This document shows, piece after piece, positions 20,880 to 64,000 of a stretch of 64,000 bases of DNA. Source of the DNA: Anadara kagoshimensis (lineage: Eukaryota > Mollusca > Bivalvia > Arcoida > Arcidae); contig CM037860.1 of assembly GCA_021292105.1 (NCBI GenBank), positions 15,766,698-15,830,697 of the forward strand. Reading direction: 5' to 3'. Position numbers and translations under genes: made by a program. Numbering within the stretch: position 1 is the first letter of the stretch; every line of letters begins with the position of its first letter. A model generated the notes under the pieces. That model was not told the DNA's origin, did no database searches, and saw nothing but the letters and a program-made list of their open reading frames with translations.

Positions 20880-21855
20880 GGGACATCGTTGCTATGATAT
20901 GTATTTCGAAGCCATGACTTGGTTCATAAGAAAAAAATAAACTTAATATAAGGCGTGATCATAAAATTTAGCCCCATCTTTAAAGTAAACATTAGAGAAG
21001 ATGAAATAGTTAGTTCTACTGCAAGAGAAATTTTTCATCAAAAGGAATAAGCACCACGGTATGTGGTTTCTTTGGAATGAATACGCTATCAATTTTCTCG
21101 ACGGAATAAACACGCTAGTGTTGAGATTCCAACGGAAAATGCCGAACTAGTAATATGTTTACATGTCTTCATTTACCAGAAACAGTGTACCAGGAAAAAA
21201 AGAATTTACAATTTGAAAACTCGTGTTTTTTCTCCACATGTCCGTTCTGTGCCTCTGTACATCGGTGTTAACAGCTGGCTGGTCAGTTTTATATAACTGA
21301 CATATTGAACTTTTTGCCTGGATACTTATACTGTATTGATCGTGTACACCTAACCATAAATGCATATATATATTGTAACACGTGGTGTTTACAAAACACC
21401 CTGGTAATTGTAAAATGAACAGATTATCTTAAAGCCTAATTTATAGTAATCATTATTACTACATGCAATGCACAGTCACAAAAACCAAAATATCAAGATT
21501 TGTACAAAGTGCAATAAATCGCGAAAACGGTTCAATTTTGCTGTCATATTACAAACCGCCCTGCACTGTGAACATCCCATATGAATAAAAACTATGCCAA
21601 TTATTTAAAGTTGTTTATGTACCAACATAACAAAAACATAATTGTGGAAAGAGTGAATTTATTATTGTAAACACAACGCATTTGAAATTTGAATACAACA
21701 TAAATACACCTGTAATTAATATTTTTCTCATGCAAATAAATTATGATTTTTTAATATACGCCCTATTTTGCATATTTACTGACTCCTGAAAACAACAACA
21801 TTGACCTCATTTCGGTATGAAACACTATACTACTCCCACAACAACATGTACGTGG
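20880..21855. other. No gene seen
   Basis: Upstream flank of the CRTAC1-like gene. AT-rich, with no recognisable coding or repeat structure beyond scattered short AT tracts. Confidence 0.4.
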
Positions 21856-23040: not shown

Positions 23041-23237
23041 CTTAAACTCAACATTTTGATTTTCCTACATTGCTTGATGGTCACCAACTTTGAATGCTTT
23101 TGAGAATTACACAAATATGTTGTGACAAATAAACTTGATATGTTTAAAATGGCGGAATGTTGTGTTGTCTAAATAAGTAAAGAAAATATGTGTTACGCTT
23201 GGCTAATAACGCTGTTCTATGAACTTTCTGACTTCCC

Positions 23238-37500: not shown

Positions 37501-40500
37501 CTAGTATTCATGTTTATACAAAAAGTTTATAGTTTTCGAGTTAATTAACCATTTTGGTATTCTTTCGCATCTGTAACCTTGACCTTTGAACCCATTACCT
37601 TAATCTATATATCAAAATGATCGTTAAATCAATTCCTACAATATTCGAATATACATTTCTATACAAAAAGCTTATAGTTTTTGAGATGATTAACCATTTC
37701 AGTATTCTTTCGCATCTGTGACCTTGACCTTTGAACCCATGACATTAATATATATATCAAAATGATCGTTAAATCAAAACCTACAATATTCTAATATACA
37801 TGTCTAAACAAAAAGTTTATAGTTTTTGAGATAATTAACCATTTAGGTATTCTTTCGCATCTGTGACCTTGACCTTTGAACCCATGACATTAATCTATAT
37901 ATCAAAATGATCGTTAAATCAAAACCTACAATATTCTAATACATATCTATACAAAAAGTTAATAGTTTTCGAGATAATTAACCATTTTGGTATTGATTTG
38001 CATCTGTGACCTTGACCTTTGAACCCATGACCTTAATCTATATATCAAAGTGATCGTTAAATCAATTCCTACAATATTCTAATATACATGTCTATACAAA
38101 AAGTTAATAGTTTTCTAGATAATTAACCATTAAGGTATTCTTTCGCTTCTGTGACCCATGACCTTTATCTATATATCAAAATGATCATTGTGCCATTACC
38201 TACAATATTCTAATATGTATGCCTATACAAAAAGTTAATAGTTTTGCAGATAATCAACTATAATGGCAATAGTTGTGCATCCTTGACCTTGACCTTTGAA
38301 CTCATGACCTTGATCTATGTATCAAATGATTGTCATGTCAATACCTACAATTAACTGAAAATCCCATGCCATTATCATCTAAAATGTTTAAAAATAGCAT
38401 TTTTATCAAAGGTCAAAAACAGGGACATGACCTTGACCTTTGACCTTGACATCTTTTGGAAGAAAATAGCAAGACAAGATCAACAGTGAAAACTCCATAC
38501 ATAATTTTACGCAAAAAACGCGTAACCTATTTTTCGTTCAATTTTCATGAAAAACACAGTTTTAATGTTCCCAGGTATGCTGAATCTAAATATCCAATCA
38601 AAATTTGCCTGCACCTTTTGGTTTCAGAGAAGAAGATATTTTTGTCTTTTTGCTATTTTTAGTAACGGTGGCCATCTTGTTGGGCATGGCCAAACCCCGA
38701 ACAAAATTTTGAAAGGCTGTTACCCAGGCATGATAATCGCCAAGTTTCATCAAATTTGGCCCAGTAGTTTTGGAGGAGAAGATTAAAATGTAAAGTTTAC
38801 ACACGACGCACGATGCATGACGGACGGTGATAGATTGCAATAGCTCACCTAAGCCAAAGGCTCAGGTGAGCTAAAAATTCCCCGATAATTCCCCGATCTT
38901 GAAAACAAAATTCCCTTACTTTTCCCTGACAATCGGGAAGCAGGTTATTATATATACCTACCCTTCTTATTGTTGGTACATCTATTGCTATATCCTCCTC
39001 TCTCACATGGCATTGTTTCCTATAATAAGAAGGAAAACATTAAACTAGAAAATATAAAACATTTGTAGAGTTAAACAGGCTACAAGGACCTAAGTCAAAG
39101 TGACCTTAATTTTGTCTCATAAAAACTAAAGTTGTTTTTAAAGAAGACTAATGATACCCTCGTGGAATCACGTGGCCTAGTGGTTAAGGCGTTGGACTCA
39201 TGATTCGAAGGTCGTGGGTTCGATCCCTGGACCGGGCGATGTGTTGTGTCCTTGAGCAAGACACTTAATTTCACGTTGTTCCAGTTCACTCAGCTGAAAA
39301 ATAAATGAGTACCAGCAAAATGCTGGGGGTTAACCCTGCGATGGACCGGTGTCCCATTCAGGGGAGAGTCTTGTACTCTCAGTCGCTTAACGCCACGGAA
39401 ACCGGGATAAGCTCCGGCCTGATGGGCCTAATGGCTCGGGACAGACTTTAACTTTAATGATACCCTCCCCCCCCCCCCCCCACACACACACAACCCAGCC
39501 CTCCTCCTTTCAGTCCTTAATTAAATAGTTATATCAGAAGCCATTTATGCATTAGAAAGTTATAATCAGGATTTCAGTTTTATAACTTTATAATCTAGAG
39601 AATATGAAAAAACTATTTTTATTTTTAAAGAAAGACTTCTTGTCAACAAGTTTTCAATATTACTGAAGAGTGAAGATTATGACTTTAACACTAATGTACT
39701 TTTATGTTTTTTATGGTATAAGCTTATAAATGAATTTAAAAAACAAAACAAAAACCAAATAAACATCTATAAAATAAAAATAATTTTTTTCCCCAGGCAT
39801 GATTTGAACTAGAAACCCTCTGGTCACTAGAACACAATACGTAAAATCTGATTTCTATACAAACCCTAAACTTTGTTGGGGGTGGGAGGCGGGTATAACA
39901 ATGTTTCCCAATACCAAGCTCCTCAATGATACCAAGTCAGTTTGAGTGAGAAATGGTGTAAGGGAGATAACTTCCTACACTTTAGTTCAATTTCAATTAA
40001 ATATAAATATTGGTTCACATGAATGAAGTTGTATACTTGGTAAGTCAGAAGGGTATCTCTTTAAATTAATTTTTAGCTCTCCTGAGCCAAAGGCCTGTCT
40101 AAGGCCTAGATTGGTCATGATGGACTAAACAGTGAAAACAAATGGGACAGTGGCTATTAGAGATAGTTTGACATTTAGAGATTATTATTACTGTAAGTAA
40201 AAACTGAAGTGCAAGGACTCAAAATCCCCTGGTTCCAAGGTCTGGGACCTAAGGCTATTCATTTTACATTAGGACCCTTGATATTTAAACTGTAAATTCC
40301 GATGGACCTGCAGGTTTTACCAGGATAATGCTACTTTTTCTATATGATATCATAATTTTACATGAATCTTTCAATTTTGATATTGAACTATTGAAACTTT
40401 ATGTGGGACCTGCAATGAATAAAGACTTTGAACCATGTTAAAGCATAATTTTGAATCCCTGTGGTGTAACTTACCAGACAAAATAACCAATACATAAGGA

Positions 40501-43500
40501 TATGACGGCAATTACTGCAACACCACCGGCAACCCCTACAGCTATGTACACTGTATAATCACCAGCTTCTGTAAAAATAAAAATTGTCAAGGTTAGGTCA
40601 TTGTAATACTTCATGAAACAGGTCAAGGTGCCTGGTGGAATATAAAGGCTGAAGAATACTGCATTAGATGCTTTACCATCAATTACAACTTTCTGTTCTC
40701 TTTCACATAACCATGCTCTTGTCCAAACCAAATTTACCACTGATTTCACAATCGGGTTCGCTGCTGTACCATGTGATACCCTCTAACATTTGTGCTGAAC
40801 ACTCATTTCCAATGGATATGGAATCGCATAAAGTGACATTTTAATGTAAATCGACATTATTGCGGAAAATTTTGTCAACATTTTCCAAAACATTCTGCAC
40901 AAACGTCAAGAGGCATTGATCACATGTACAGTGGTGAAGCCAATTGTGCAACTTTGGTGAGGCACATGCAGTGTCAAATACCATACTTAAATATGAACAA
41001 TAGAATATCAAACGGCACTGTGTCCTTGTATTTCTTTAATAGTTATGATTAAATAGATCTTTCTTGATCTCTTTTGCCTGAATTCATGCTGAAAGTAGAG
41101 CGGTCATTGATGAGAATTTGAATATCGATATATCAAATGAAAAATATATCGATATATTGAAATATTGCAAAAATGATTAAAATAAGATTACTTTTTGTTG
41201 AATCTTTTGTAGACAGATAATTTTCCACTAATATTTGGCATGTCTGGTTTTGTCTTGAATGTTTCTTATATTATATGCATCCTATTTTATATGGCAGTTG
41301 GTTTTGAGATACATGTACATTAAAATGATAGGTTGTAATAATAATACATTTACAACCAGTTTAATCTATGTGTCATTGACTTCTCCAACTTTAGCCATGA
41401 ATTGGTGGCCATTTTTGTTGATATCGATACTCATAAAATGTATCGATATATTGTATCAATGGCTTTTATTGATGATATATTGATCTATCAATGACAGCCC
41501 TAGCTGAAAGTCAACTAATATTTTGTCTTTATCAAGGTGTTCCATTATTGGTGTTCAATAATTGGTGTTCCATAATGATATCTTTATATGGCATCGATGG
41601 TAACATAAATCATCAAAGTTAACCACACACATGATCAAGCTTATGTAACTTTTACAAGCTGCTAATAAATGTGGTCATCTGTTTCCATGACAAAGAAGGC
41701 TTTAATAATTTCTTAAGTAATTAACTTGTTGAATTGTATTAAAAATAAGAAATCTGCAAAAAAAGACAATAATGTTGATCATTATTAATAATAATAGATT
41801 TATATCAAATGATGTCATGATGTCACATTACTTTGACTTGTTAAATTTGATGAATAAGCCACTCCAACTTATTAGAGTCTGAGATTGACGGCAGGCTAAT
41901 TTTCCCACAATGTACCTGAAATGGTTTCGGACTCTAACCAGTTTGAGTTATAAATTAGCATACTGTATTCTATTTTTAAACAAACAATGTAGCGCATGTC
42001 TCTTTTTAAGAAATTCACTAACAGGGTGTTGTTTAAACTGTATGCAAGTCAGAGGATACACTATTACACATGCGCAGTGACTGGTGGATTTACCTATCTC
42101 ATGCGCAGTGACTGGTCAAATTACCTACATGTACTGTGATTGGTCAATTTACCTATCTCATTTACATAACTTGATAAGAAATAGCCCAATGTTAGAAACC
42201 TGGAACTATGACTAGTAACTTATCTGGTTGTGTGTGTTATAGTTTTTTTAGTTTAAACAATATTTTATTTAATTCATAAATACATAAGTAAAATAAATAA
42301 CATATACAAATATAGAAAATAGGATTCGGGAACAAGCCATGTGCTTAATCCTATTTTCTATATTTGTATATGTTATTTATTTTACTTATGTATTTATGAA
42401 TTAAATAAAATATTGTTTAAACTAAAAAAAAAAAAAACTATAACACACACAACCAGATAAGTTACTAGTCATAGTTCCAGGTTTCTAACATTGGGCTATT
42501 TCTTATCAAGTTATGTAAATGAGATAGGTAAATTGACCAATCACAGTACATGTAGGTAATTTGACCAGTGTGTGTTATATGTTGCTGTTGAGATGCATTC
42601 CTTCGTGCGAGACGCGCACCTGTAATTACTAATTTAGCAGTATTCTAACTTACAATTTACAAACCAAGTTATCTTATTTACAGGTATTCATAGAATAAAC
42701 ATCAGATTTCAATATTTATCTGCATGTACAATAATTTCTAAAAGTAAGGCATGTTCGAAAATAAAATTGGATTTTAAAAAATTATCCTACAAACTGATGA
42801 GCTGATAGTATTATTATCAAAAATTTACTGATTTGACTTATCGAATTTTGATCAAAATTTCATAAATTCTTTCAATTTCTTCACATTTTTCCTAAATATT
42901 TATAACAAAATAAGGGACAGTTCTGAATGCCCAGTCACTAGTGGAGTGTATTTGTAATTTTCCGTCAAAACTTTTTATTAATAATATTTTTTTACTTTAA
43001 CTAACCATTACATATAATACTTATTATATGTCGCTACTTTAATTCACATTTTAGAAAACAAAATTTATATATCTGTCTAGATTTTTATTAAATTTAGAGA
43101 AGATTAAATTTATTAGATGTGGAATATCTTAATAAAGGACAACTGGATACATTTAAAAGTAAAATAGTCTTGATCGAAATGTAAAACCCTATTGAAACAA
43201 TCAATGATTTTTTAAAAGGATTGATTGAATGGGGTTATATGTCCCAGTCAAGAATATTTCTTATATCTAGATGCCACCAACTACAGTAGAACTTCGATAA
43301 CTCGAAGTGCACGGGACTTCGATGATGACTTAGAGTTATCGGGATGTTCGAGTTTTCAAAGTTGAAGAATGACGTCACAATGTAACTTTCATTTTTTTGG
43401 GAGAAATGTTGGATGGTGTAAAACTGTTTACTGATACACTGGTGGAATATGTACCGGTATTGCAAAATAATAAATGAATTAAAATTGAATAAAAATCAAA

Positions 43501-46500: not shown

Positions 46501-47671
46501 TGTCAACTATACATATCTCAATTGGACAACTACATTTTGATATACTGGGTACCACATCCAGAAATGTCAACTATACATATCTTAAAGGTCACCGGTCACC
46601 AAATTTATCAATTTTGTATTTTGCATTCTAATGGGTAGAATAGTCAATATTGATGTGTCTGACGGTTTCCCATGCCTTACATTTACCTGTAATACACTAA
46701 AACCTTACCTGAACGAACTGCTAATACTCGGTAGTTTCCGACACTGCTCGTAACTTTCCGGCGACCTAATTGATGACGTACATGGTGTTAAGCTGCTGAG
46801 GAAAGACACATAACCTCTATATGTATCCATGTATTACATGTGGGTTTGTGTGGTGTTTTGAAGGCCTTTAAAGTTTGATTTCAAGTCAAAATGATATATT
46901 TTGTGAAGTTTGAATATAATAAAATCACAATGACCGATGAACATGTTTTTTTTTCACAAAATTCAGAACAAATTAAAGCCGGATTTACACAGCTGTTCAT
47001 GCAGCTTTTTAATTGTTTTGAATGTATTCAGATTAAACACTACGAGATAAGTCAGGGAAATATGAGTTGTTTAATCATTTAAGACAATTGAAATTATTAT
47101 GAACGAATTCAGTCAAATATATAGATTTTTAAACAATTTTAATTTCCAAAATTAATTTAATTCCGTTATTCAATCAGTTCACCAATTCACACGTTCAAAC
47201 AGAGACGTGTGCCTTGTTCAAATTAACTAATCTAATTTAACTTTAATTTATTCGATTTTCAGAATCCATAAAAAATGACAAATAACATTTACCGGGTATA
47301 TCATAAATATATACGCACGCGTCGATTAATGTTGCATATTGTAAGGTAAACTCTGTTAATTACAGGTGGTAGATGTCTACTTCTAAACAGGATGTTTCCG
47401 AATGTAGCATATTGATAATCTCTTAATTACTGGTATGTGAGGGGATGTAAATCACACTTTGAACGATATTAATTTATTGTGAATAAATGAAAGAAAGTTT
47501 CACTCGAGTTTTGAGTTCTTAGTAATATATATAGTCGAGCGAAATCCCACTGGTATCACATTTTGATGACGTTCTTTTCATCCCATTAAAATTAAGCGTA
47601 ATAAAGTTATTATATGAATTTATTTTTTTATTTTATCATGGAAACATTAATTATTATTATTATAATTATTA

Positions 47672-51125: not shown

Positions 51126-54100
51126 ATGAAGATATAAATAAATAACTCAGAGATATGTAAAGATTAAAATGATATTAAATATTAATGAAAATTAATATGA
51201 GCAATATTTTAAATAAAAAACGGAAGTTTGGGTTCTTTTATTATTTGTTGTGGTAAATAAATAAATAAATAAATAAACAAATTTCTAAAGAAATGTAAAA
51301 TTATGTTTTGTAAAAGTATTAGTAAATAGTATATCATACTTAGAGCAAACACAAATATAGTTTTTTCTTTATTTTTTTTTTTATTATTATGAGTTTATTT
51401 TTTATTTGTTTTTTTCTACTGAAGGAAACTGAAATACCCAATGCTAAAAAATAAATAAATATATAAAAACAATAGAAGTTATTTCCGATAAATCTGGGAA
51501 ATAAATGCAGTTCACTATACAAGCTTCATTTACTAAATAGCTGGGATAACACCTTCTGCGTCACTTCCGGTTTTGTGCCCTTTTACTACCAAAGGGAGAT
51601 AACACAGTTTTTCAACAGTTTCAGGACTTTAATTTACGCTGTAGAAAAGGACAGAAACGATTAAAAAATGTTATTTGTGGCTAAATCGACTTTTTATGAT
51701 GTAATCTTTCGGAAAATAGTACTAAAAAAAATTCGGTTTTTGGTGACCGGTGACCTTTAATTGGATATCTATATTTTGATATACCAGGTACCACATCCAG
51801 AAATGTCAACTATACATATCCCTATTGGATATCTACATTTTGATATACCAGGTACCACATCCAGAAATGTCAACTATACATATCCCTATTGGATATCTAC
51901 ATTTTGATATACCAGGTACCACATCCAGAAATGTCAACTATACATATCTTAATTGGATATCTACATTTTGATATACCGGGTACCACATCCAGAAATGTCA
52001 ACTATACATATCTTAATTGGATATCTACATTTTGATACACTGGGTACCACATACAGAAATGTCAACTATACATATCTTAATTGGATATCTACATTTTGAT
52101 ATACTGGGTACCACATCCAGAAACATCTAGTAGTATACAATTCTTCATTATCATTCATACAGGGTTAGTAAATATTACATCGGTCTAGGGTGAAGCCCAA
52201 AGCTAGATATGAAACTGACTCTGTATGAACCATTATAGTTTTGCATCAACACACTGTAACTACATGAAATAATGAAAATTTATGTAGTTGTATACTGTTA
52301 TTGTATATCCTTATAACTGATCACCCTGAAGATATATATATGTATGCGTGTTTAACAATATATAAATATATATATGTTAAAGAAAACAGTTGAAATCAGG
52401 AATTACATGTACATGTATTTACTAAAATTTAGTACAACAATATAATTTCCTGTAATCCCCATTGAATAAATTGCTGCTGAAAGTATTCATCTTCAGGTTG
52501 TCTAGATAAAATAAAAATTACCTTACACCAGCAAATCTTTCTATTTAACATGAACATGACAGGAGATGATATTGGTAATGCGGAATCAAACCCAATACCT
52601 TTTTAACAACATGAATACATGTACAGTAAAACCTCGTTATAATGCCCCTCGATTACTTTGCCATCTCGCTTATCGCCACACTATTTTGAAGTCCCAAAAT
52701 CCATTTTGTTTATGGTTTTCCTTATTCGCCTCCCCCGATTTATCGCCAAACCCCTTTATAACGCCAAACTTTGACTGAACAAATGGTGGCGATGAATCAA
52801 GGTTTTACTGTATACTCTATTAATTGCTTGATAAATGACAACCACTGTTACAGTAATTATTTTATTTTATTTTGTTTAAGCCAAAACTACCTGTTTAATT
52901 TAATTGGGCCAAAATTATCCCTAAAGGTACCTCTTAAAATCAATAAGTGTCAATCTTTATATGTCCAATTCATCTATTGTCCAGTAATCATTTTGTTAGG
53001 TCATTTGTACTTTTATCTAATAGTTTAACTTGTCAAGTTTCAAGTTTCTTTATTTCTCATATTGCAATTTTACAAATTGAGAATATATAAACACACATAT
53101 ATATATATAACAAATAATGCATGAGTAACAGCATAACATAACTATACAATTACACATTATGTTAACCCGGAGGACCGGTAGTACCGATTCTTTCATTAAT
53201 AATCTTTATAAACTTACTTAATTTAATTTGTAGAGATAAATTTGTATTGTTGAATAATGAATAAAATTTTAAAGTATTTGGTTTGACAATATACCATTTA
53301 GGAATAAACATACTTCTTTCTGCAGACAAAGCAGTACAACACAAAATATAGTGATATTCATCACCTAAATCGGTGTTACAAAGTTCACATAATCTATTCT
53401 CTCTTGGGATATTTTTCCAACGTCCAACTTCAATAGGTAGTTTATGATTACTACATCTAAAATTACTTAAAGTAGTTTTGTTTCTATCAGAAAGATCTGA
53501 AGTTAAATACAATTGTAGTTTAAAATCAAAATGAGTAAATAAATTATAAGAGATTCCCCTTGAAAAGGTAGAATTTGTATACCAACTTTGTAAAAATTGA
53601 TCATATAATTTTTGTTTAACACATTTAATTAACCAGGTACGGTTGCTATAATTATGAAATAGCCATATATTATTCATACCACATTCTTGAAAAATTGCTT
53701 CAACTGAGCTAATCCACTTAGTTTTAACACCATTTGAAAAATAGTTATATAATAATTTGTAAAAAATTGACGTATATTTCGTATCACTTTTCTCAATAAT
53801 ATTTGACCAGTAACTTATAATTCTAGTTTTGACATAAACATATAATGGTACCCTGCCTAATTCGCCATATACAATAAAACTTGGCGTACTTTTTCTAACT
53901 TTTAAAATAAGTTTACAAAATTTTAAATGGACCCTTTCTAATATATCTAATTTTTCAAAACCCCATATTTCTGAACCATACAACAAAATTGGTAAAACCA
54001 GATTTCTTCTTTTTCTTTGAATTTTTTTGCTCCTCTTTCGAATTCATTGAACACTAATGTCTTTTATATAACTCCAGTACATTTTCAGTAATTTTAAAAT

Positions 54101-57100
54101 CCAAAAAAACATGTTTTTGAAGGATAAATGTAGAGCAAGAAATTTAAACAACCCGCTATTACATGTGAAGTCCAGTTTTCATGTTGTCAATAAAATAGTT
54201 TAAGTGTGTGAGTGCATGAATTTTTGATGGATGAATGATTTTGAAGGTATAAAAGAAGGTGTGAAAGTTTAACTTGGAGGGAGTATGATATGATCAGAAA
54301 GAATGACAGAGGTGATATATTTTAAAGGAATTTTTGAAGATATGGGTAGTGTGAGTACATATTTTACTTATTTTAAATAAAAAAAAACAGTTTAGCACTT
54401 GCTATACTTAAATTCATTAAAGAAAGTAATTACATTAAAATTTAAAATTTAAATCTGCAAATTCTGCACTGGGTGCTATATTGAGTACCGTAATTGTAAA
54501 ATAATGTGATGCAATTGTGACATAATGAGATGTAAAATAATGAGATGTATTTGTGAAATACTGAGATATATATTGGTGAGATTTTCGTGATTTAGTAATG
54601 ACGTCATATTACATAATTAATGTACTATTATAATTATTGTATTAATTGAGCACCATATTAGGCACCTTTTGTTTTATTTGGAAATTTAAATAATAATTTA
54701 GTCATTTAAAATCTCAAATTTCTTACAAATTGTTTGTTTCTGATCATTTTAGTTTGGCTTGATACCTTGAGCAGAAGAAAAGTCAAAAATAATTATTGTG
54801 GAATTGTTTGCACATAGAAAATTTATGTGATGTATTGGTGAACTGAAAATTGAAGAATTGAATTATGTAAAAAGAACTGAATAATTCTGTGTAAATGCAG
54901 TTAATTTAATTGATATTGAAGTTGTTTGTGTTGAATTGATTTTGATGAACTGAAATGAGAAATAATTCAATGAAATTATTATACAGTTGTGTGGAAAACG
55001 AACTGAAATGAATTGTAATATAGAGATACAGTGAAATTATTGAACTGTGGAGTGAAAAACGAACTGAATTGAATTGATGTAATATTGTGAATTGGACATT
55101 GAGAAGAGTTAATTTGTTCTGAAGATGAACTCTGATGGATTTGATAACAACCACATTCCACCCTCCTAACTCAATTGAAACTGCAAGATTAAACCCTTGG
55201 ACTAACTCAAAAGTTAATTTACATAGCTCAGATAGGTCATGGATTGCTGGGACAGAGTGGGATTTGAACCCAGGACTTCTCAATCTAGAGACAAGTTTTA
55301 CCTGAGTTACTCTAACTACCGCTGGTAAACAATATGTATCATTGATGGGCCACGCTACAACAATTCTCATAAATATACAATATGTATCATTGATGGGCCA
55401 CGCTACAACAATTCTCATAAATATACAATATGTATCATTGATGGTCAACGCTACAACAATTCTCATAAATATACAATATGTATCATTGATGGGCAACGCT
55501 ACAACAATTCTCATAAATATACAATATGTATCATTGATGGGCCACGCTACAACAATTCTCATAAATATACAATATGTATCATTGATGGGCCACGCTACAA
55601 CGATTCTCATAAATATACAATATGTATCATTGATGGGCCACGCTACAACGATTCTCATAAATATACAATATGTATCATTGATGGGCAACGCTACAACAAT
55701 TCTCATAAATATACAATATGTATCATTGATGGGCCACGCTACAACAATTCTCATAAATATACAATATGTATCATTGATGGGCCACGCTACAACAATTCTC
55801 ATAAATATACAATATGTATCATTGATGGGCCACGCTACAACGATTCTCATAAATATACAATATGTATCATTGATGGGCCACGCTACAACAATTCTCATAA
55901 ATATACAATATGTATCATTGATGGGCCACGCTACAACAATTCTCATAAATATTTCATTAGGATATGTATTATTAAATGGCCCTTGTGAAAAAATACAAAA
56001 TACAAATAGTATTTGAACCTAGGGCCTCTCATTCTAGAGTTAAGTGTTCCACCTAGTAAGCTACTCTGGCTTTTACACTAAATGAATGTTTATTACCTAC
56101 CTTTGTTAGTCTGGGCTACAACTTTTGTTATAAACATTTCAATGGGATCTGTCTGAACTGGACTGATTTTTGTGTTATGCAGGTGAGCCTGAACCCAAAC
56201 AAAGTATGTCTTTCCTTTCTCAACGTTCTCCATTGTGTATGATGACATAGTGGAATTTACTTTCACTTTCTTTCCATTTTTATCTGAAAAAAGGAAAATT
56301 TTTATTTTCCATGGTTAAAACATAATTTTAAATGTAAAAAATACCGTAAAACCTGCTATAGTGACCATCTCTATATAATATCATCTGCCCATGCAAACAG
56401 TTTAAGGTAGCAAGTTTGATATTTCAACCAAAAGAAACTTTTAATAAAGACCACCTAAGTCTATAAAGTCCTCATTTTAAGGTCCAATAGGTGGTCTACA
56501 TAAGCAAATGTTGGTGTTTTTCTTCAAACTATATCACTAAAGCAGTCAGTTGGGGTGGAAGGGGAAACTGGACTACCCAAAGAAAATCATCAACTTTTGG
56601 TAAGCAAACTGACAAGATTTCTTACACACTATGATCTGGCTATATCAGGTTCAAAGACACCATAGGTGTGAGAAGAGATGTGATATTTTTGATATTTTGA
56701 CCAGTACTTTTGACCAGCTACTTATAAAAACCAGGGAAGTAATTTACTCTTCAATAAGGATACAATCAAACCTGTTTATAAAGGCCACCCAAGGGAACCA
56801 GTAAAAATGGCCTTTAAGGGCAGGTGACCTTTATTATAATACAGGTTTAAAAAATATGAATAAAGAATTATTGGGATACAATTCTACTGGCCTCTATAAA
56901 CAGATGGCCCTTATATAGAGGTAGCCTTTAAGGCAGGTTCAACTGTATATTGCATTTTAGCCTAGATATAAACTCAATTTTTAGAATATAGAATGTAATT
57001 TTTTTGGAATTCCAAGTGAAAAACAACCAATAATTGAAAAGTGCCAAAGAAATATTAATATCAAGAGAAAAACAGTTTACATTTGGAAAGTGCAAAGAGA

Positions 57101-60100
57101 CAGAAATCCAAGTGAACAAGCAAATTCAGTGAATTAGGATCCCCCTGTCAGCATGTTCTTTTTTGTGACTTGAACTTATGTTTAAAGAACCATAACTCTG
57201 AGGAAAATGAGCAAACTAATTCCGGTTAACAATATGTGCATCTTATATCTATGTTGATACTTAATTTACACCAAGTTTGGTGAAATAGTGCTTCTTTGTT
57301 TTGGAGATTTAGTGCAGACAAGGATTTAAGATGGAAGGATTGACAGAAACTAGAATTTAATATCCCCCTCTTTCTCTGAAAAGCAGGGGATGAAAACAAC
57401 CAACAACTAACCTTTAGAAACAAGGTTAATTTTTATTATTAAACAAGACTTACATTGACATTTGAGAGTTGTATTCTGGATACAGTATGTAACTATGTAC
57501 CAAGTCACATATCCTCTAGCTTCATTACATCCATACGGCTCCCATTTAATGTGGAAATTATCTGTATCTGTAATATTGTCACGTTTTATCTTCAATGGCT
57601 GATCTGGGACTGAAAAATTAAAGTATAGTAGAGTCTAAACTGCCTCAAAGGCAACCTCTATTTAAGAGTAACCTGGTTTTAAAGGTCAGTAAAATTGTAT
57701 CCCAATTGTTCTTTATTCATGTTATTTTAACCTGCATATAATGGCTTCCTGCCAATAAAGCCACTTCTACCAGTTCCCTTAGGTGACCTTCACAGACAGG
57801 TTTCACTGTAATATATTTATCATGTCTTTGAATGTTCCATTTATGTTTCACATGATAATCTGCATTACACAGTGATCAAGATGATGGATTTCGCAAATAA
57901 AATTGTTTTGTTGTATAGGCAAATTCCACCACCTTGACCGTGATATTTGTACCCTGGTTGATTTATCATTTGCTATATTAAATGGGAAATTGCCAGAACA
58001 GTATGTTCCATCTTTTGCAAGTAATGTTTGTACATGTGTAATTTTTGCCTTTTCATGCAATAACATTTTTTGTTTGTGCATATTTTTCCCTCACTCTCCT
58101 GGTTTAAATTTTTTGCATCTGAAGAAAAGCTTTATGAAGAAAGAAATATTTGATTTTTATTCACTTTTTTGCCTCTATTTTTTTTTCCAAAAATCTGATG
58201 AACCGAAACTTAATTTGTTGTGGCCTTATATGTATCATCAATCTTACCCCCATCCATGACGTAGTTACATCTACTCCAGTTTATAGGACTCCCCGTCATT
58301 TTACCAGCAGGTATGTCAAAACTTTTTGTTGTATAGCTTATCGTTGATACTCCAAAGATGTAATTCTCATAGTCACTTATATTAGTGCCCATGTCTATAT
58401 GGTATGAAGTGGCATTTTTTACAATAATAGTCTGTATCATGTCCTACAATAAAAGTGTATACCGGTAATTATATTCCCAAACCATAAAAAAATTGAGACT
58501 GCCAGCCCTGCTTTATCATAATATATTATCTAGAGATTGCCAGCCCAGTGACCTCATCATAAAATATAATTTAGAAATTATGAGCCTAGCCCCTCGTTAG
58601 AAAATATTATCTGTCATTTGATGTTTGACAAATCATATTCACTATATATCATCTAGAGCAAACAGCCAATCATCAAATCATTTTCCATTTCCCACCAAGA
58701 AAAAACAGCCAATCATCAAATCATTCCTCATTTCCCATCAAGACCAAACAGCCAATCATCAAATCATTCCTCAATATCCATCAAGAGCAAACAGCCAATC
58801 ATCAAATCATTCCCCATTTCCTGCCAAGACCAAACAGACAATCATCAAAAAATTTCCCATTTCCTGCCAAGAGCATGAGCAAATCATTAAATCATTCCCC
58901 ATTTTCTGCTAAGAGCATGAGCCAATCATCAAATCATTCCCCATTTCCTGCCAAGAGCATGAGCCAATCATCAAATCATTCCCCATTTTCTGCCAAGAGC
59001 AAACAGACAATTATCATAAGACAGAATAACAAACATCTCAAAAACCATGCTGAAGAAAAGGTGGCATCAAGAGTGAAATGGGGTAATGGAGTTATAGGCC
59101 ACAGTTTAGATTATTTTTCTTTGCTTATATCAAGGTGGTCAGTTCAAGGATGAAGGTGGAAACTGGCATGTCAGGAGAAAAACCAAAGCCACCAACCTTC
59201 AACAAGTGAACTGACAAACTTTCTCTCACTAGGATTTGCCCAGAGTGGGACTCAAACCTTGGCAGTGAGAGGGACTGTGATCTGTAAGTACACAATTTAG
59301 ACCTCTTGGCAACTGAGGCCCCAGGTGGCATGAAGAAATAAAAATTCTGACAAATGAAAGCAAAGTTGATGGCATTGGAAATAACATTTATTTAGAGGAT
59401 TATGTTCTTTATTTTACCTGGCAACCAGAGTCATATGTTCCTTTACAATACACAATTCCATTCCATTCGATCTTCAAATTTGATGGATTTTTCCATCTGA
59501 TATCAACATGTGTACCATTAGACTCTACCCATACTACCTTTGCCTGGGGTGGTCCTAAATTAAAAAAGAAAAATAATTTAGAACATAACAAAACTTTACA
59601 TATGCAAACTGTCATTTTTGTCAGATCATGATCGCCTTGAATGGAGGTCAAGGTCAACCATCTTCAGACACTTAATAGAATTTCATGTACTGATGGTCAA
59701 TATGAAGTTTCAATCTTCAAAACCACTCAGTTCATGATAATATTGATGTCTAAAGATTAAGATACTTCTAATGATTGTGAAATTAAATGGACAGAAAATG
59801 AATAAAAAGTATTAGAATACCTCACCTTGAGTACTAACTCACTACTGTTCACATTGTTTATATGAAATGTAATTACACATAAGAAAGAATATGGTTACAA
59901 TGAAATTATTTTCAAAAAAAGTGAATCTGGTCACTATGACAAGTTTTACAAAGAAGAGTGAAACTAGTCACTATGATATGTTTTACAAAAAAGAGTAAAA
60001 CTAGTCACTATGATATGTTTTACAAAGAAGAGTGAAACTAGTCACTATGATATGTTTTACAAAGAAGAGTGAAACTAGTCACTATGATATGTTTTACAAA

Positions 60101-63100
60101 GAAGAGTGAAACTAGTCACTATGATATGTTTTACAAAGAAGAGTGAATCTGGTCACTATGACAAGTTTTACAAAGAACAGTGCTTTTTGTTGTGATGACA
60201 AGTTTTACATGTAACTTACTTGTAGTTTTGGGTAAGATAAAGAAGAAGGAATCTTGTTTTGCCTTCCCTTCTTTTGTTCTCTGACTTAGAAATATTTTAT
60301 ATGTGCTGTTGTTTTCTTTGTTGTTGAGATATAGGTTGTATTTCATTGCTGACGTGTCTTTTATCATGATAAGTTTACTCTTGGAATGATCTGTCATGTT
60401 TTCTATCCAGATGATGTAATCTGTCAGTACACCATGTCTGTCCTTAATCAAGGTTGGCTGAAAACATAAAGTTCAAGATTAAAATTACTGTCAGTGTCAG
60501 TATGGTTAGAACAGTAACTATTAACTTTCGCGATATTAACTATAAATAAAAATTAAATTTATGATATAAATAATACCATTTACAAAGACATGTTTGCAAT
60601 TGATTAAATTTTGCAATTATTTTGTCCTGGCAAAACAAAAGTTAATCCCAGGTGAATAAAAGTAAGTATGCAATAACGTACCTGCCAATAAATGGTAGCA
60701 TTGTTACACTCACTGTCTATACACTCGTAGAAATATGGAAGCAGTTTAGGGTTCTTTCCTGGTACTGAAATGAAATAAATAAGAGTTGAATGGAGTAACG
60801 GTGTTGTAAACCCCAGTTCAGATAATTTCTCTCATAATCAGTCAGTCAGTTCTGGGATGATGGAGGAATCCAGAGGATAATATTTTGGTTTCTGGAGGAT
60901 AAAATTTTGGTTTCCAGAGGATAATACAATATTTTGGGTTTCCAGAAGATGAAATTTTGATTACCAGAGAATGATATTTTGGTTACCAGAGAATGATATT
61001 TTGGTTTCCATAGGATGATACATTTTGTATTTTGGTTTCCAGAGGACGACGTTTTGGTTTCTGGAGGATAAAATTTTGGTTACCGGAGGATAATATTTTG
61101 GTTTCCAGAGAATGATACATTTTGTATTTTGGTTTCCAGAGGATAATATTATTTTGATTTCCAGAGGATAATATTATTTTGGTTTCCAGAGGATAATATT
61201 ATTTTGGTTTCCAGAGGATAATATTATTTTGGTTTCCAGAGAATAATATTATTTTGGTTTCCAGAGGATAATATTTTGGTTTCCAGAGAATGATACATTT
61301 TGTATTTTGGTTTCCAGAGGATAATATTATTTTGGTTTCCAGAGGATAATATTTTGGTTTCCAGAGAATGATACATTTTGTATTTTGGTTTCCAGAGGAT
61401 AATATTATTTTGATTTCCAGAGGATAATATTATTTTGGTTTCCAGAGGATAATATTATTTTAGTTTCCAGAGGATATTATTTTTGGTTTCCAGAGGATAA
61501 TATTATTTTGGCTTCCAGAGGATAATATTATTTTGGTTTCCAGAGGATAATATTATTTTGGCTTCCAGAGGATAATATTATTTTGGTTTCCAGAGGATAA
61601 TATTATTTTGGCTTCCAGAGGATAATATTATTTTGGTTTCCAGAGGGTAATATTTTAGTTTTCTCCTTCCTATTCCATGTACAATATTTTTTTTAATGAA
61701 TAAATATAATCATAAAATAAAAAAGAATCTGTTTATGACTATCTGGTCATATGGTCTGATGCAGTAGATTTGTGGTAAGGTCTGCTGGTGGATTTAGTAG
61801 TGTTCTGAACAATACAAGACAAATTAAGTTCTTGTTGCAGTAGACTTGTGATAAGTACTGCTGGTGGATTTAGTCATGTTCTGAACAACACAAGTAAAAA
61901 GTTTAATAAATAAAGGTTTTTAAATGAGTGTTCATCTTAAAAAGTAGAAACAGTATTCACAATGCATTTACTGAAAACCTGTCTATTCTGAAAATAATCC
62001 AACAAAAAGCTGGAATAATCTTCAGCTTACACACTAAATCTGAAAGGGAATATTTTTGCTGTTTTCGTCATTCCTCTTACGATATTATCATAAGATAAAT
62101 TAAACAAAGTTAAAAATACTATTACCTGATTATCCTGTTGAATTACCTGATTATCCCGTTGAATTACCTGATTATCCCGTTGAATTACCTGATTATCCCG
62201 TTGAATGTCTTAATTTTGATTACACACGTGGTGGGTCTATCTAACTAAACAAGAGGTGCTTACCCTTCCAGAGCACTTGGCCTCACTTCCCTAATGGAAC
62301 ATCATGTGTTTAACCTAATTCGTCAGTTTCAAAGTTTTAAATTTGCTTTTGAATTGTGATTTGGACATGGATTAGAATGTTAGTTATTGATTGTAGTTTT
62401 GAATACTGTAAAACAATAAATTTTCATGTGCATGTTGTGTTTCTGCAATTCGTCAGTTAATGATAAAAAAAAGCAAAAATAATGTGTGTGAAAATGAAAT
62501 TAATCAAATAAAAAGCACAGTTCACAGGTAGGAACACATGAATTTGTACATGATGAAGAACAAACCGCTGATTTTATTTACATAGTACATACCTATGACT
62601 TTAAATGCGGAGATGCTCATAATGGGAAACAGCAAAAATTTCATGCTGCAAAGTGACAGACAGAAATCTCACGAAAATATCATGCTGTAAAATAAGATGT
62701 TTTACAGTACTTACCATCTTCTAATGTTCTAGTGGTAACCCTTTTGTACTTCACTTCAGTACTTACCATCTTCTAATGTTCTAGTGGTAACACTTTGTAC
62801 TTTACTCCAGTACTTACCATCTTCTAATGTTCTAGTGGTAACCCTTTGTACTTCACTCTAGTACTTACCATCTTCTAATGTTCTAGTGGTAACCCTTTGT
62901 ACTTCACTCTAGTACTTACCATCTTCTAATGTTCTAGTGGTAACCCTTTGTACTTCACTCCAGTACTTACCATCTTGTAATGTTCTAGTGGTAACCCTTT
63001 GTACTTTACTCCAGTACTTACCATCTTGTAATGTTCTAGTGGTAACCCTTTGTACTTCACTCCAGTACTTACCATCTTCTAATGTTCTAGTGGTAACCCT

Positions 63101-64000
63101 TTGTACTTCACTCTAGTACTTACCATCTTCTAATGTTCTAGTGGTAACCCTTTGTACTTCACTCCAGTACTTACCATCTTCTAATGTTCTAGTGGTAACC
63201 CTTTGTACTTCACTCTAGTACTTACCATCTTCTAATGTTCTAGTGGTAACCCTTTGTACTTCACTCTAGTACTTACCATCTTCTAATGTTCTAGTGGTAA
63301 CACTTTGTACTTCACTCTAGTACTTACCATCTTCTAATGTTCTAGTGGTAACCCTTTGTACTTCACTCCAGTACTTACCATCTTCTAATGTTCTAGTGGT
63401 AACCCTTTGTACTTCACTCTAGTACTTACCATCTTCTAATGTTCTAGTGGTAACACTTTGTACTTCACTCTAGTACTTACCATCTTCTAATGTTCCAGTG
63501 GTAACCCTTTGTACTTCACTCTAGTACTTACCATCTTCTAATGTTCTAGTGGTAACCCTTTGTACTTCACTCCAGTACTTACCATCTTCTAATGTTCTAG
63601 TGGTAACCCTTTGTACTTCACTTCAGTACTTACCATCTTCTAATGTTCTAGTGGTAACCCTTTGTACTTCACTCTAGTACTTACCATCTTCTAATGTTCT
63701 AGTGGTAACCCTTTGTACTTCACTCTAGTACTTACCATCTTCTAATGTTCTAGTGGTAACCCTTTGTACTTCACTCCAGTACTTACCATCTTCTAATGTT
63801 CTAGTGGTAACCCTTTGTACTTCACTCTAGTACTTACCATCTTCTAATGTTCTAGTGGTAACCCTTTGTACTTCACTCTAGTACTTACCATCTTCTAATG
63901 TTCTAGTGGTAACCCTTTGTACTTCACTCCAGTACTTACCATCTTCTAATGTTCTAGTGGTAACCCTTTGTACTTTACTCCAGTACTTACCATCTTCTAA
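33755..64000 (-). CDS. Single-pass fibronectin III receptor, cytokine-receptor-like (3' part, 10 exon pieces)
   Basis: One minus-strand gene whose 5' end lies beyond the right edge. Exons in transcript order: array region ending at a donor within 62700-64000, then 60764-60682, 60457-60220, 59554-59418, 58443-58248, 57609-57454, 56283-56101, 40568-40475, 39019-38962, 34590-33755. Every junction has GT-AG ends and joins in phase by hand. Introns between fibronectin III domains are phase 1, as is usual for this module. The product has the end of one FN3 domain, three complete FN3 domains each split over two exons, a membrane segment, a 19-aa basic/acidic juxtamembrane exon and a cytoplasmic tail with YVRQ, YEGQ and YVQQ. 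YxxQ motifs recruit STAT3-type factors in gp130-class receptors. I therefore lean to a gp130/Domeless-like cytokine receptor, but no clear Box 1 was found, so other FN3 receptors remain possible. The last exon carries a frameshift. Confidence 0.75.
34591..35590. other. Receptor intron, no feature seen
   Basis: Intron sequence before the 44-bp minisatellite. AT-rich; no exon or clear repeat. Confidence 0.5.
35600..36200 (+). repeat. 44-bp minisatellite in receptor intron
   Basis: Roughly twelve units with core CCCAAACTGAACAACAGTGG, then AATCTGTGAAAACCCTAAAA. Units alternate between GTGAAAACC and GTGAATGCC. The outer units are diverged and the central ones nearly identical. Confidence 0.9.
36485..38880 (+). 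mobile_element. Repeat element with internal 145-bp tandem array
   Basis: The left end reads AAGAGGCCCATGGGCCTTAA. The right end is a hairpin, AGCTCACCTAAGCC / GGCTCAGGTGAGCT, followed by CTAA-type sequence. Between 36720 and 38340 about eleven units of roughly 145 bases contain AATCTATATATCAAAATGAT, CCTACAATATTCTAATATAC, ACAAAAAGTTTATAGTTTT and GTGACCTTGACCTTTGAAC. Elements with internal tandem arrays and a 3' hairpin recall the pearl/Helentron-associated repeats of bivalves; that assignment is inference. Confidence 0.65.
38962..39019 (-). CDS. Receptor juxtamembrane exon
   Basis: A 58-base exon between acceptor AATAG|G and donor AGG|GTAGGT. The first base completes the tryptophan codon started by the membrane exon; 19 codons follow (KQCHVREEDIAIDVPTIRR), ending in phase 0, as the last exon needs. 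The charged sequence right after the membrane segment fits a stop-transfer and the start of a cytoplasmic tail. No WP-x-P-type Box 1 is visible. Confidence 0.7.
39168..39452 (+). mobile_element. Complete tRNA-derived SINE
   Basis: The head GTGGCCTAGTGGTTAAGGCG with B box GGGTTCGATCCC (39219-39230) is a good tRNA-like promoter. The body reads TGTGTCCTTGAGCAAGACAC, then CAGGGGAGAGTC and GGATAAGCTCCGGCCTGATG. It lies in the receptor intron, antisense to the gene. Confidence 0.75.
39465..39495. repeat. C homopolymer and CA tract
   Basis: Poly-C is followed by (CA)n just after the SINE at 39168-39452. Confidence 0.8.
40475..40568 (-). CDS. Receptor transmembrane exon
   Basis: A 94-base exon between acceptor TTTTTACAG and donor CTG|GTAAGT. 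Two bases (AA) complete the glutamate started by the exon at 56101; 30 codons follow; two bases (TG) run into the next exon. The product is AGDYTVYIAVGVAGGVAVIA continuing into VISLCIGYFV, a single membrane segment of about 24 residues with small-residue (GxxGG) spacing. The preceding intron is 15.5 kb. Confidence 0.8.
41097..41503. mobile_element. hAT-type MITE with 8-bp target duplication
   Basis: The 407-bp element is flanked by identical 8-base direct repeats CTGAAAGT (41089-41096 and 41504-41511). The ends are imperfect inverted repeats (AGAGCGGTCATTGAT on the left; CTAGGGCTGTCATTGAT when the right end is complemented). The interior is rich in ATCGATATAT motifs. Eight-base duplications are the mark of hAT insertion. 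Confidence 0.75.
42111..42569. repeat. Near-perfect 459-bp palindrome
   Basis: Arms 42111-42325 and 42348-42569 appear identical in reverse complement, except that a 7-T run in the left arm faces a 14-A run in the right. The 22-base spacer begins TCGGGAACAAGCC. No repeat termini or target duplication are evident at the outer edges. Confidence 0.9.
42600..43280. other. Receptor intron, no feature seen
   Basis: AT-rich intron sequence with no exon or clear repeat supported. Confidence 0.4.
43284..44136. mobile_element. Pogo/Tigger-like non-autonomous element
   Basis: Ends CAGTAGAACTTCGATAACTC on the left and the complement of TTATCGAAGTTCGACTG on the right, flanked by TA on both sides (43282-43283, 44137-44138). 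Further TTCGAGTTATCG motifs lie inside both ends. No transposase frame is present in the 853 bases. Confidence 0.7.
44141..44400 (-). mobile_element. tRNA-derived SINE (minus strand)
   Basis: Reversed B box GGGTTTGAACCCA (44338-44350) and reversed A box CTACCAACTGAGCC (44378-44391). The body has CTTGGCCAAAGATAGGCC and GGGAGGGTTCTGTCAT. It directly abuts the TA flank of the 43284 element. Confidence 0.75.
44540..45290. other. Receptor intron, no feature seen
   Basis: AT-rich intron sequence before the 64-bp minisatellite. No exon found. Confidence 0.4.
45294..46585 (+). repeat. 64-bp minisatellite, left part
   Basis: About twenty units with core GGTACCACATCCAGAAATGT, then CAACTATACATATCTTAATT and GGATATCTACATTTTGATAT. 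The array is interrupted at a TTAA by the element at 46586-51756 and continues afterwards. Confidence 0.92.
47651..47950. repeat. ATT/AAT microsatellites
   Basis: (ATT)n runs at about 47651-47714 and (AAT)n at about 47921-47949, inside the TTAA element. Confidence 0.85.
48059..48289 (+). repeat. 170-bp tandem repeat split by a LINE
   Basis: A unit reads CAGAGATATGTAAAGAT, TTAATGTGAACAATG, AAAAAACGAAGATTTGGG, TTTGTTGTGATAAAT and an (AAAT)n run. One unit spans 48059-48230. The second begins at 48226, is cut at 48289 by the LINE, and resumes at 51031. A third lies at 51147-51283. Confidence 0.75.
48290..51030 (-). mobile_element. 5'-truncated non-LTR retrotransposon (LINE copy 1)
   Basis: On the minus strand the element runs from a truncated coding region near 51030 to a 3' end made of repeated GTGAATAAA. 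It inserted within a 170-bp tandem repeat that lies inside the TTAA element. The order of insertion is therefore 64-bp minisatellite, then TTAA element, then LINE. Confidence 0.8.
48598..50945 (-). pseudogene. LINE reverse transcriptase, frameshifted
   Basis: Minus-strand frames give, in order: a linker (KPWFGNEC, then EYWKIVNG); an RT domain with FRKWYSTTDNIF, FVDFRKAFDSVWR, GVRQGENLSPFLFS and the catalytic LLYADDTIIFAE; and a C-terminal region with SCEVWGFENL, TPSYMVYGELGRFP and a zinc-knuckle-like CTFCKTELGDEFHFLFVC. Endonuclease is missing through 5' truncation. Frames change near 50840, 49515 (AAA run) and 48970 (GGGG run), and an in-frame TGA lies upstream near 50960. The RT motifs place it among jockey/CR1-like LINEs; the exact clade is not determined. 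Confidence 0.85.
51031..51290 (+). repeat. 170-bp tandem repeat, continuation after the LINE
   Basis: AAAAAACGGAAGTTTGGGTT and TTTGTTGTGATAGAT with (AAAT)n runs (51065-51127, 51258-51283). Completes the unit cut at 48289 and adds another copy. Confidence 0.75.
51761..52125 (+). repeat. 64-bp minisatellite, right part
   Basis: Six units continue the array at 45294-46585, same orientation and sequence (GGTACCACATCCAGAAATGT). Confidence 0.92.
52130..52620. other. Receptor intron, possible decayed MITE
   Basis: TAGTAGTATACAATTCTTC near 52130 and TTATGTAGTTGTATACTG near 52281-52299 form a loose inverted pair. The rest is AT-rich without features. Confidence 0.3.
52626..52809. mobile_element. TA-flanked MITE (CAGTAAAACCTCG)
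   Basis: Left end TACAGTAAAACCTCGTTATA, right end AATCAAGGTTTTACTGTA. Short, no coding capacity. The CAGT...AACCTCG terminus is typical of pogo/Tigger-type elements. Confidence 0.65.
53028..53995 (-). pseudogene. LINE copy 2, C-terminal fragment
   Basis: An open 274-codon minus frame (53986-53162) matches the C-terminal third of LINE copy 1: SEIWGFEKL, TPSFIVYGELGRVP, then a knuckle CELCNTDLGDEYHYILCC. It starts abruptly near 53995 without an RT core, so it is 5'-truncated. The 3' UTR ends with AATAAAGAAACTTGAAACTT at 53038-53060. Sequence and 3' end differ from copy 1, so the two are separate subfamilies. Confidence 0.8.
54000..55230. other. C-poor intron stretch
   Basis: No gene. The plus strand is visibly depleted of C from about 54180 to 55140 and contains loosely repeated GAATTGAATT and GAACTGAA motifs (54840-55090). 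Confidence 0.4.
55238..55325 (-). mobile_element. tRNA-like SINE head, left of minisatellite
   Basis: Reversed B box GGGATTTGAACCCAGG (55259-55274) and reversed A-like region CTGAGTTACTCTAACTACCG. Same orientation as the head at 55995. Confidence 0.5.
55328..55955 (+). repeat. 48-bp minisatellite, 13 units
   Basis: Thirteen near-identical 48-base units with core AATATGTATCATTGATGGGC, then CACGCTACAACAATTCTCAT. Variant sites are few (GGCCAC/GGCAAC, CAACAA/CAACGA). As 48 is divisible by three and no stop occurs in one frame of each strand, long frames of 16-residue repeats exist on both strands. They are not called genes. Confidence 0.95.
55995..56080 (-). mobile_element. tRNA-like SINE head, right of minisatellite
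   Basis: Reversed B box TATTTGAACCTAGGG (56008-56022) and reversed A region CTAGTAAGCTACTCTGGC. It ends about 20 bases before the receptor splice donor at 56100. Confidence 0.45.
56101..56283 (-). CDS. Receptor exon: second half of membrane-proximal FN3
   Basis: A 183-base exon from acceptor CAG (56284-56286) to donor AAAG|GTAGGT. It enters in phase 1 and leaves in phase 1, with its last G completing a glutamate with the transmembrane exon. The product contains NSTMSSYTMENVEKGKTYFV, the F-strand tyrosine region of an FN3 domain, then VQAHLHNTKISPVQ and the G strand. Confidence 0.8.
56762..56948. mobile_element. TA-flanked MITE (CAGTCAAACCT family)
   Basis: Left TACAATCAAACCTGTTTATA, right AGGCAGGTTCAACTGTATA. 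The interior GGGATACAATTCTACTGGCC matches the copy at 26133. Confidence 0.6.
57454..57609 (-). CDS. Receptor exon: first half of membrane-proximal FN3
   Basis: A 156-base exon between acceptor TTTTCAG and donor CAAT|GTAAGT. It reads PDQPLKIKRDNITDTDN then FHIKWEPYGCNEARGYVTWY, the B-strand tryptophan and C-strand region of an FN3 domain. Cysteines follow in YCIQNTTLKCQ. Enters phase 1, leaves phase 1; the last T completes a tyrosine with the next exon. Confidence 0.8.
57627..57810. mobile_element. TA-flanked MITE, inverted copy
   Basis: Reads in reverse to the copies at 26133 and 56762: TAGAGTCTAAACTGCCTCAA on the left, GACAGGTTTCACTGTAATA on the right, with AAATTGTATCCCAATTGTTC inside. Confidence 0.55.
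58248..58443 (-). CDS. Receptor exon: second half of middle FN3
   Basis: A 196-base exon from acceptor TTGTAG to donor GGGG|GTAAGA, entering in phase 0 and leaving in phase 1. It reads DMIQTIIVKNATSYHIDMG, then DYENYIFGVSTISYTT (F/G strands) and SPINWSRCNYVMDG. NWS is both a glycosylation sequon and weakly WSxWS-like. Confidence 0.78.
58640..59005 (+). repeat. 44-bp minisatellite in receptor intron
   Basis: Roughly eight units with core CAATCATCAAATCATTCC and CATTTCCTGCCAAGAGCA; spacing varies. Short plus-strand frames across it are repeat by-products. Confidence 0.85.
59120..59335 (-). mobile_element. Leu-like SINE (minus strand)
   Basis: Reversed head: GTGGGACTCAAACCTTGGC (B box) and ACCTCTTGGCAACTGAGGCC (A region). 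Body GGTGGAAACTGGCATGTCAG. Same family as 3571-3720. Confidence 0.6.
59418..59554 (-). CDS. Receptor exon: first half of middle FN3
   Basis: A 137-base exon from acceptor TTTAG|GA to donor CAG|GTAAAA, phase 1 in and phase 0 out. It reads PPQAKVVWVESNGTHVDIRW (B-strand tryptophan), then KIEWNGIVYCKGTYDSGCQ (C strand and a cysteine pair). Confidence 0.8.
59920..60185 (+). repeat. 37-bp minisatellite beside a splice donor
   Basis: About seven units of GAAACTAGTCACTATGATAT and GTTTTACAAAGAAGAGT. The array ends about 35 bases from the donor of the exon at 60220-60457, on the intron side. Confidence 0.9.
60220..60457 (-). CDS. Receptor exon: second half of distal complete FN3
   Basis: A 238-base exon from acceptor TTTTCAG to donor CAA|GTAAGT, phase 0 in and phase 1 out. 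It reads PTLIKDRHGVLTDYIIWIEN (C strand of an FN3 domain), MKYNLYLNNKENNSTYKIFL (F strand), then SFFFILPKTT (G strand). Three N-x-S/T sequons are present. Confidence 0.8.
60682..60764 (-). CDS. Receptor exon: first half of distal complete FN3
   Basis: An 83-base exon from acceptor ATTTCAG to donor CAG|GTACGT, phase 1 in and phase 0 out. It reads PGKNPKLLPYFYECIDSEC then NNATIYWQ. Its first codon (V) needs a G from the upstream exon, which every donor in the 51-bp array supplies. Confidence 0.75.
60850..61660 (+). repeat. 25-bp minisatellite in receptor intron
   Basis: More than thirty units of TTTTGGTTTCCAGAGGATAA with TATTA or shorter linkers. Some units carry an ATGATACATTTTGTA insertion that recurs at intervals, giving a loose higher order. 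Confidence 0.92.
61670..62110. other. Receptor intron, no feature seen
   Basis: AT-rich. A short duplicated phrase (GCAGTAGA, TGCTGGTGGATTTAGT) appears at about 61761 and 61838. No exon found. Confidence 0.4.
62125..62205 (+). repeat. 21-bp tandem repeat, four units
   Basis: ACCTGATTATCCCGTTGAATT repeated four times with one variant (TCCTGTTG). Confidence 0.9.
62251..62415 (+). repeat. Dispersed repeat (CTTACCCTTCC family)
   Basis: AGGTGCTTACCCTTCCAGAG, then GTGTTTAACCTAATTCGTCA and GACATGGATTAGAATG. Best preserved 3' part of the family first seen at 9731. Confidence 0.65.
62699..64000 (-). repeat. 51-bp minisatellite that contains an exon end and its splice donor
   Basis: Twenty-six copies of a 51-base unit, reaching the right edge. 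On the minus strand each has GAAGATG|GTAAGTACTGG preceded by AGGGTTACCACTAGAACATT. Read in the receptor frame a unit gives GKYWSEVQRVTTRTLED, 17 residues that look like the G strand and end of an FN3 domain. The G before GTAAGT completes the first codon of the exon at 60764. All 26 donors are intact. In 15 units the tryptophan codon after the donor is a stop (TAG in 13, TGA in 2). The upstream part of the exon lies beyond the window. Confidence 0.85.

Follow-up and report, generated by a model that had tools for sequence, protein, structure and literature searches.

What is a 51-base minisatellite doing at the right edge of the window (the whole stretch of 64,000 nucleotides analysed, C4:15766698-15830697 of its assembly), if each of its copies looks like the end of an exon followed by a 5' splice site? 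The preliminary description of this DNA offered two answers, a neutral expansion of decoy donors in an intron and a length-variable receptor segment selectable by splicing. In our opinion, it is quite probable that this is an intronic minisatellite that began across the boundary between an exon and its 5' splice site in a gp130-like receptor gene, and whose later amplification was probably neutral.

The array and the exon from which it starts

On the minus strand of the window we recounted 26 copies of GTAAGTACT at a spacing of 51 bases (one spacing is 52), the number given originally, and TRF reports a period of 51 with 97% matches. By TRF and junction search this part of the exon-end/donor minisatellite occupies 62705..64000. 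At the tryptophan codon that follows the donor, 15 of these 26 copies have TAG or TGA, as had been stated, and 10 have TGG, while the 26th copy enters unique sequence. Reading inward from the right edge, the first in-frame stop is indeed the TAG at 63880-63878; however, seen from the exon, the two open units that were counted before it come after other stops and after some two thirds of the array.

That position becomes apparent once the contig is extended past 64000, a check that the preliminary description itself proposed. We added about 27 kb past the edge from the window's own assembly (1,115,223,567 bases, 36 contigs); coordinates above 64000 are therefore window-equivalent. The array continues, and an authentic exon is reached at 67006-66844. 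On the extended sequence the TRF array spans 62705-66889 and counts 82.1 copies, a range that takes in the final 46 bases of the exon. A relaxed junction search finds 82 exon-end/donor junctions, the first intron base of which runs from 66843 (donor 1) to 62714 (the last); 75 of them read GTAAGT, two GTAAGC and five TTAAGT, so that GT is present at 77 of 82. Between the junctions lie 81 units of 19 distinct types, 77 of them 51 bases long, three of 50 and one of 52. Starting at a real exon end (66844) and going on for 82 junctions, 77 with GT, the array resembles in its layout the one described for human IFI6. It is a real and very long splice-donor minisatellite, larger than the earlier note had it, and the upstream exon, its acceptor, its donor and the array are found together on a single piece of the assembly. 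The array part of the intron contains GTAAGT 75 times and the other 1,936 bases of the intron not once, an excess above chance. The remainder of the intron (60765..62713, minus strand) holds two more minisatellites, at 60869-61654 and 62121-62206.

The exon in question, which we call D3b, is open and lies immediately upstream of the copies. It is preceded by TACTACAG, reads EINLDGNKIEQHIIKNLTPYTTYKINVDVIPLINRSVIGYWSKVQRVTTRTLED/G (the slash marks the splice junction), with ...GYWSKVQRVTTRTLED/G as its end, and closes on GATG/GTAAGT. It forms the end of domain 3 and includes a degenerate WSXWS-like segment. The idea that the unit combines an exon end with its own 5' splice site is hence borne out by an exon with matching end and donor, and the phase proposed for the junction is right as well: GATG/ leaves in phase 1 and tttcag/TACCAGG at 60764 enters in phase 1, which gives LED-V-PGKNP.

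What would each donor produce? We joined D3b, up to each of the 82 junctions in turn, to the next two exons (D4a and D4b) and read the frame. Donor 1 alone opens into domain 4. Five junctions have no GT, and all 76 other GT donors give one and the same truncation, ...LEDGKY-stop (...RVTTRTLEDGKY-stop), because the first intronic unit carries an in-frame TAG. The proposal that any donor could be used, each step adding 17 residues, does not survive this result, and a splice-selectable receptor segment of variable length fails with it for the allele of this assembly. Coding extension in 17-residue steps is ruled out for this allele. The other reading, that of intron decoys which expanded neutrally, is supported, since only donor 1 keeps the frame.

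Along the whole array the codon at the tryptophan position is TGG in 38 units, TAG in 40 and TGA in three, and this loss of tryptophan in 43 of 81 units is as expected of an intron. Given the 38 units with TGG, the first unit could be open in another allele. The order of tryptophan and stop along the array is near random (41 runs against 41.4 expected); nine of the first ten units are stopped, open units do not cluster near the exon, and the longest open runs reach four units. The tryptophan/stop pattern matches itself more often than chance at lag 4 (0.636 against 0.496, p 0.013). With 12 lags examined and the p value uncorrected, we set a higher-order repeat of four units aside. The last 46 bases of exon D3b equal the matching part of units 2, 51 and 57 of 81; hence the array may have arisen recently, or exchange with the exon may be continuing.

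The gene and its likely identity

All features of the gene model lie on the minus strand, and phases agree across 11 exons, from D2a to the transmembrane exon. Exon D1 (window-equivalent 82743-82426, 318 bases) fits by its length and open frame. Exon D3a (window-equivalent 71133-70991) joins D3b in phase, and D3b in turn joins D4a (60682..60764, phase in 1, out 0). There follow D4b (60220..60457, in 0, out 1), D5a (59418..59554, in 1, out 0), D5b (58248..58443, in 0, out 1), D6a (57454..57609, in 1, out 1) and D6b, an FN3 exon (56101..56283, in 1, out 1). The transmembrane exon at 40475..40568 (in 1, out 2) was recognised by eye from its hydrophobic stretch. A probable cytoplasmic region is divided between open stretches at 34590-34183 and 34195-33758, which overlap and use different frames; a frameshift, a short intron or an error of assembly could be the reason. 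The second stretch holds YVRQ and YVQQ; YxxQ is a STAT3-type motif.

Two other arrays neighbour exons of this model. One with a 37-base unit (59909-60182) starts 37 bases past the end of D4b at 60220 and does not include its donor. One with a 48-base unit (55329-55952; 16 codons, 13 copies, 98% matches) lies just downstream of D6b and is open on both strands; a minus-strand open stretch of 370 residues spans it. Further away on the minus strand, transposase-like open stretches are found at 22118-23041, the first of which matches Pfam HTH_32 and HTH_48 (Mos1) below the cut-offs, and an open stretch of 580 residues at 19152-20891 contains FG-GAP repeats and an ASPIC/UnbV domain.

The gene appears to encode a gp130-like class I cytokine receptor, an assignment from sequence which is not proven. 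A query with domains 2-3 (214 residues) has gp130 (1bqu) as its best PDB match, with E 9.6e-5 over residues 3-214, and gp130 accounts for 14 of the 24 PDB sequences listed, so that this pair of domains is gp130-like by this search. In the alignment the segment that was copied into the array falls on the end of gp130 domain 3, GYWSDWSE...YEDRP. This agrees with the earlier suggestion that the reading frame of the array is the last strand of an FN3 domain: by exon phases and by the gp130 alignment it belongs to domain 3 of a gp130-like receptor. A canonical WSXWS is absent at the end of domain 3, where GYWSKVQ aligns to GYWSDWSE of gp130. With longer queries of 399 and 675 residues, FN3 domains of receptor tyrosine phosphatases lead (E 3e-4 and 5.7e-7, respectively), and gp130 is absent among the matches listed for both. 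In Pfam, fn3 reaches 60.3 bits against a cut-off of 25 and is the sole passing family of the six listed; no cytokine-receptor model exceeds its cut-off, LIFR_D4 scoring 15.7 bits (E 0.017, cut-off 25). As for the gp130-type layout of an Ig domain, two cytokine-binding domains, three FN3 domains and a transmembrane stretch, the exon phases fit and fn3 was matched, and the Ig domain and the transmembrane stretch were read by eye.

Paralogs in the same genome

Searching the genome with 416 residues (E up to 1) returned at least 14 matches, eight in this gene and six at two other places, C4 29.80-29.81 Mb and C4 30.10 Mb. Over two long pieces the two paralogs agree with each other at 98.9 and 99.2% identity and, being nearly identical, they count as one independent comparison. 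They represent either a recent duplication or a haplotype duplicate. A frame change is seen inside the D3b exon of the 29.81 Mb paralog relative to the 30.10 Mb copy.

In both paralogs the D3b exon ends in TKTLED/G and is followed, in the same phase 1, by an intron of some 400 bases, and then by a D4a-like exon (VPA..PKMLPFYYSCIDS). TRF, run on L023 and L024, two of the four paralog pieces, finds no minisatellite in this intron, and the gene strand of all four (L023-L026) lacks the 16-base core of the array unit. Because both paralogs have the intron without the array, the intron is probably old and the array an addition.

Origin of the array and absence of selection on its donors

If the array is removed from the sequence, the word TACTG occurs once in the exon, 46 bases from its end, and once in the intron, starting at base +6; the two occurrences are 51 bases apart and have a shared run of five bases. 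Since the unit length equals the distance between these words, the pair suggests a seed for slippage or for a microhomology-mediated duplication. For comparison, a background of 7.8 kb offers 7,650 breakpoint pairs with this spacing, and 60 of them have at least five bases in common, a post hoc test of one distance in one 7.8 kb stretch. A duplication between the two words would have copied 51 bases, namely the last 46 of the exon and GTAAG. The 81 copies of this allele would then have come from unequal exchange or slippage. Every copy follows the true donor, and donor 1 is the only one from which the frame stays open into domain 4. With long flanking introns, published minigene experiments let us expect that exon definition picks the donor nearest to the upstream acceptor; the decoys would then be mostly silent and the array tolerated. 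Where a decoy is used after all, the product would be a truncation after domains 1-3, or an mRNA open to nonsense-mediated decay.

Is such an event surprising? Tandem arrays are common here: we count 27 after merging in 91,302 bases, 16 of them within the gene span. A crude expectation is 0.35 seeds across the 24 exon boundaries, with a chance of 0.29 for at least one. Of the 27 arrays, the 51-base donor array is the one that touches an exon boundary in the model. Two separate arrays, at 45278-46585 and 51757-52123, apparently share a 64-base unit, perhaps that of a dispersed satellite.

Selection on the donors finds no support, since their letters are conserved no more than the rest of the unit. 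Among the 77 full-length units, 12 of 51 columns vary; these are three of the nine donor columns against nine of the other 42 (p 0.42), and two of the six core columns (p 0.62), in a test that has few variable columns and leaves out the four units with indels. We also considered a hairpin that masks the donors. A four-unit fold is no better than shuffled sequence (z -0.73; 47 of 200 shuffles fold equally well), and this candidate was rejected. TTACCA stands upstream of the donor in 79 of 81 units and is complementary to TGGTAA at the junction, a possible stem of six pairs per donor. tRNA and Rfam scans of the window give nothing at the array; a weak tRNA-like match lies at 39171-39234. Taking these observations together, a tolerated neutral expansion is most likely.

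Donor choice and alternative explanations

The array donor is strong, with a U1 duplex of -9.3 kcal/mol, the second among the 12 donors of the gene. Of the 76 GT sites downstream of donor 1, 74 are the same GTAAGT and two are GTAAGC. Some leakage to them is therefore plausible. Competition between such donors is treated in PMC9225289, as far as its excerpt goes: under exon definition, five minigenes that each held a pair of identical donors used the upstream one exclusively, and among genomic events with nearly equal donors only 60% overall favoured the upstream site, the downstream one being preferred under strict intron definition. Those minigenes had two donors and were studied in transfected cells; here there are 77 GT donors. 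By analogy, the length of the introns that flank D3b (3,984 bases upstream and 6,079 bases for the array-bearing one) suggests exon definition and use of donor 1.

Should the decoys nevertheless be seen as a device? Use of any of the 76 donors would yield domains 1-3 followed by GKY and lacking a membrane anchor, so that the array could act as a switch to a soluble receptor, with the copy number tuning the ratio of soluble to signalling forms. All 76 donors do give the same end, the cut falls just past the cytokine-binding module of domains 2-3, and human gp130 has a soluble isoform of 50 kDa, GP130-RAPS (PMC10526877, in excerpt), which arises by exclusion of exon 9 and a premature stop and is described there as the smallest known isoform that retains binding. 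On the other hand, the stop precedes many exons and makes the mRNA a candidate for decay; as 43 of the 81 units have TAG or TGA, chance would place a stop in unit 1 about half of the time; the donors are not conserved, five of 82 having lost GT; and the upstream donor is expected to win (PMC9225289, in excerpt). We regard such a switch as unlikely. Its population version, where the 76 decoys would turn some of the transcripts towards a soluble decoy or towards decay, in a proportion that differs between individuals with array length, seems to us slightly less probable still. The receptor could instead vary in length between alleles, some of which have open first units, each donor adding 17 residues to a longer last strand of domain 3. 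The unit is 17 codons long and in frame, and TGG in 38 of 81 units with open runs of up to four would agree with this. But the TAG in unit 1 of this assembly means that no residue can be added, the three units of 50 bases and the one of 52 break the frame, and the order of tryptophan and stop is near random, with nine of the first ten units stopped; we would be very surprised if this explanation were correct.

A role that does not involve splicing at the copies themselves can be imagined too: the many donors may bind U1 snRNP and so help to splice the intron or block premature polyadenylation. There are 77 GT sites with strong pairing to U1, and suppression of polyadenylation by U1 is described in the excerpt of PMC3826338, but the donor letters show no conservation and two paralogs manage without an array, and we find this role highly improbable. 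Finally, the presence of the array or its copy number could be an error of repeat assembly. Long arrays with 97% identity are difficult to assemble, and the copy number in the assembly may still be off; yet the units are not clones, given 19 unit types and the weak excess at lag 4, and the array sits between unique flanks of exon and intron. Hence, we give very little credit to an artefact.

Significance

Even as a probably neutral intronic expansion, the array offers a useful natural set: 77 GT donors, 75 of them identical GTAAGT, in a nearly identical exonic context, with one acceptor upstream, and only the first keeping the protein open. The rule of exon definition that the upstream donor wins would be tested here far harder than by minigenes with two donors, and array length polymorphism, if it exists, could supply a dose series. 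The locus also suggests a route by which a five-base repeat across an exon end seeds a splice-site minisatellite and thereby enlarges an intron.

Comparison with known systems

We found no report of this locus in the openly licensed literature, and neither of the two paralogs of the receptor gene in the same genome has a comparable array. The gene model itself appears to be of a familiar type: receptors of the IL6R/gp130/Domeless type in molluscs and other invertebrates have Ig, cytokine-binding and FN3 domains and a transmembrane stretch, as outlined in the excerpt of PMC13203501. Truncation upstream of the membrane anchor by alternative RNA processing is likewise known for gp130-type receptors, from the soluble gp130 form GP130-RAPS (PMC10526877, in excerpt) and, reportedly, from sgp130-E10. 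Those isoforms arise by exon skipping or intronic polyadenylation and have evidence in cells, whereas decoy donors are here a possibility drawn from sequence; a leaked decoy product would resemble the short soluble GP130-RAPS.

Tandem duplication that copies splice-site sequence within a gene, as here, is also seen in intron gain by duplication of a segment bearing AGGT, including a 24-base exonic repeat in fission yeasts, according to the excerpt of PMC4974935. There a new intron arises, with GT and AG supplied by the repeats, while here the intron pre-existed and became longer, with copies made of its donor side alone. Intron gain of that sort does not fit our locus, given that the paralogs have the same phase-1 intron without an array.

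In our opinion, the closest precedent is human IFI6 (6-16, G1P3), where copies of a minisatellite carry splice donors just as they do here. Its multiple splice donors were reportedly described by Turri, Cuin and Porter in 1995. The IFI6 unit has 12 bases, unlike the 51-base unit of our array with its 77 GT donors. In IFI6, two downstream repeat units serve as donors and three mRNA species are reported, as far as the excerpt of PMC4526556 tells, whereas in the receptor gene the downstream donors would all truncate the protein.
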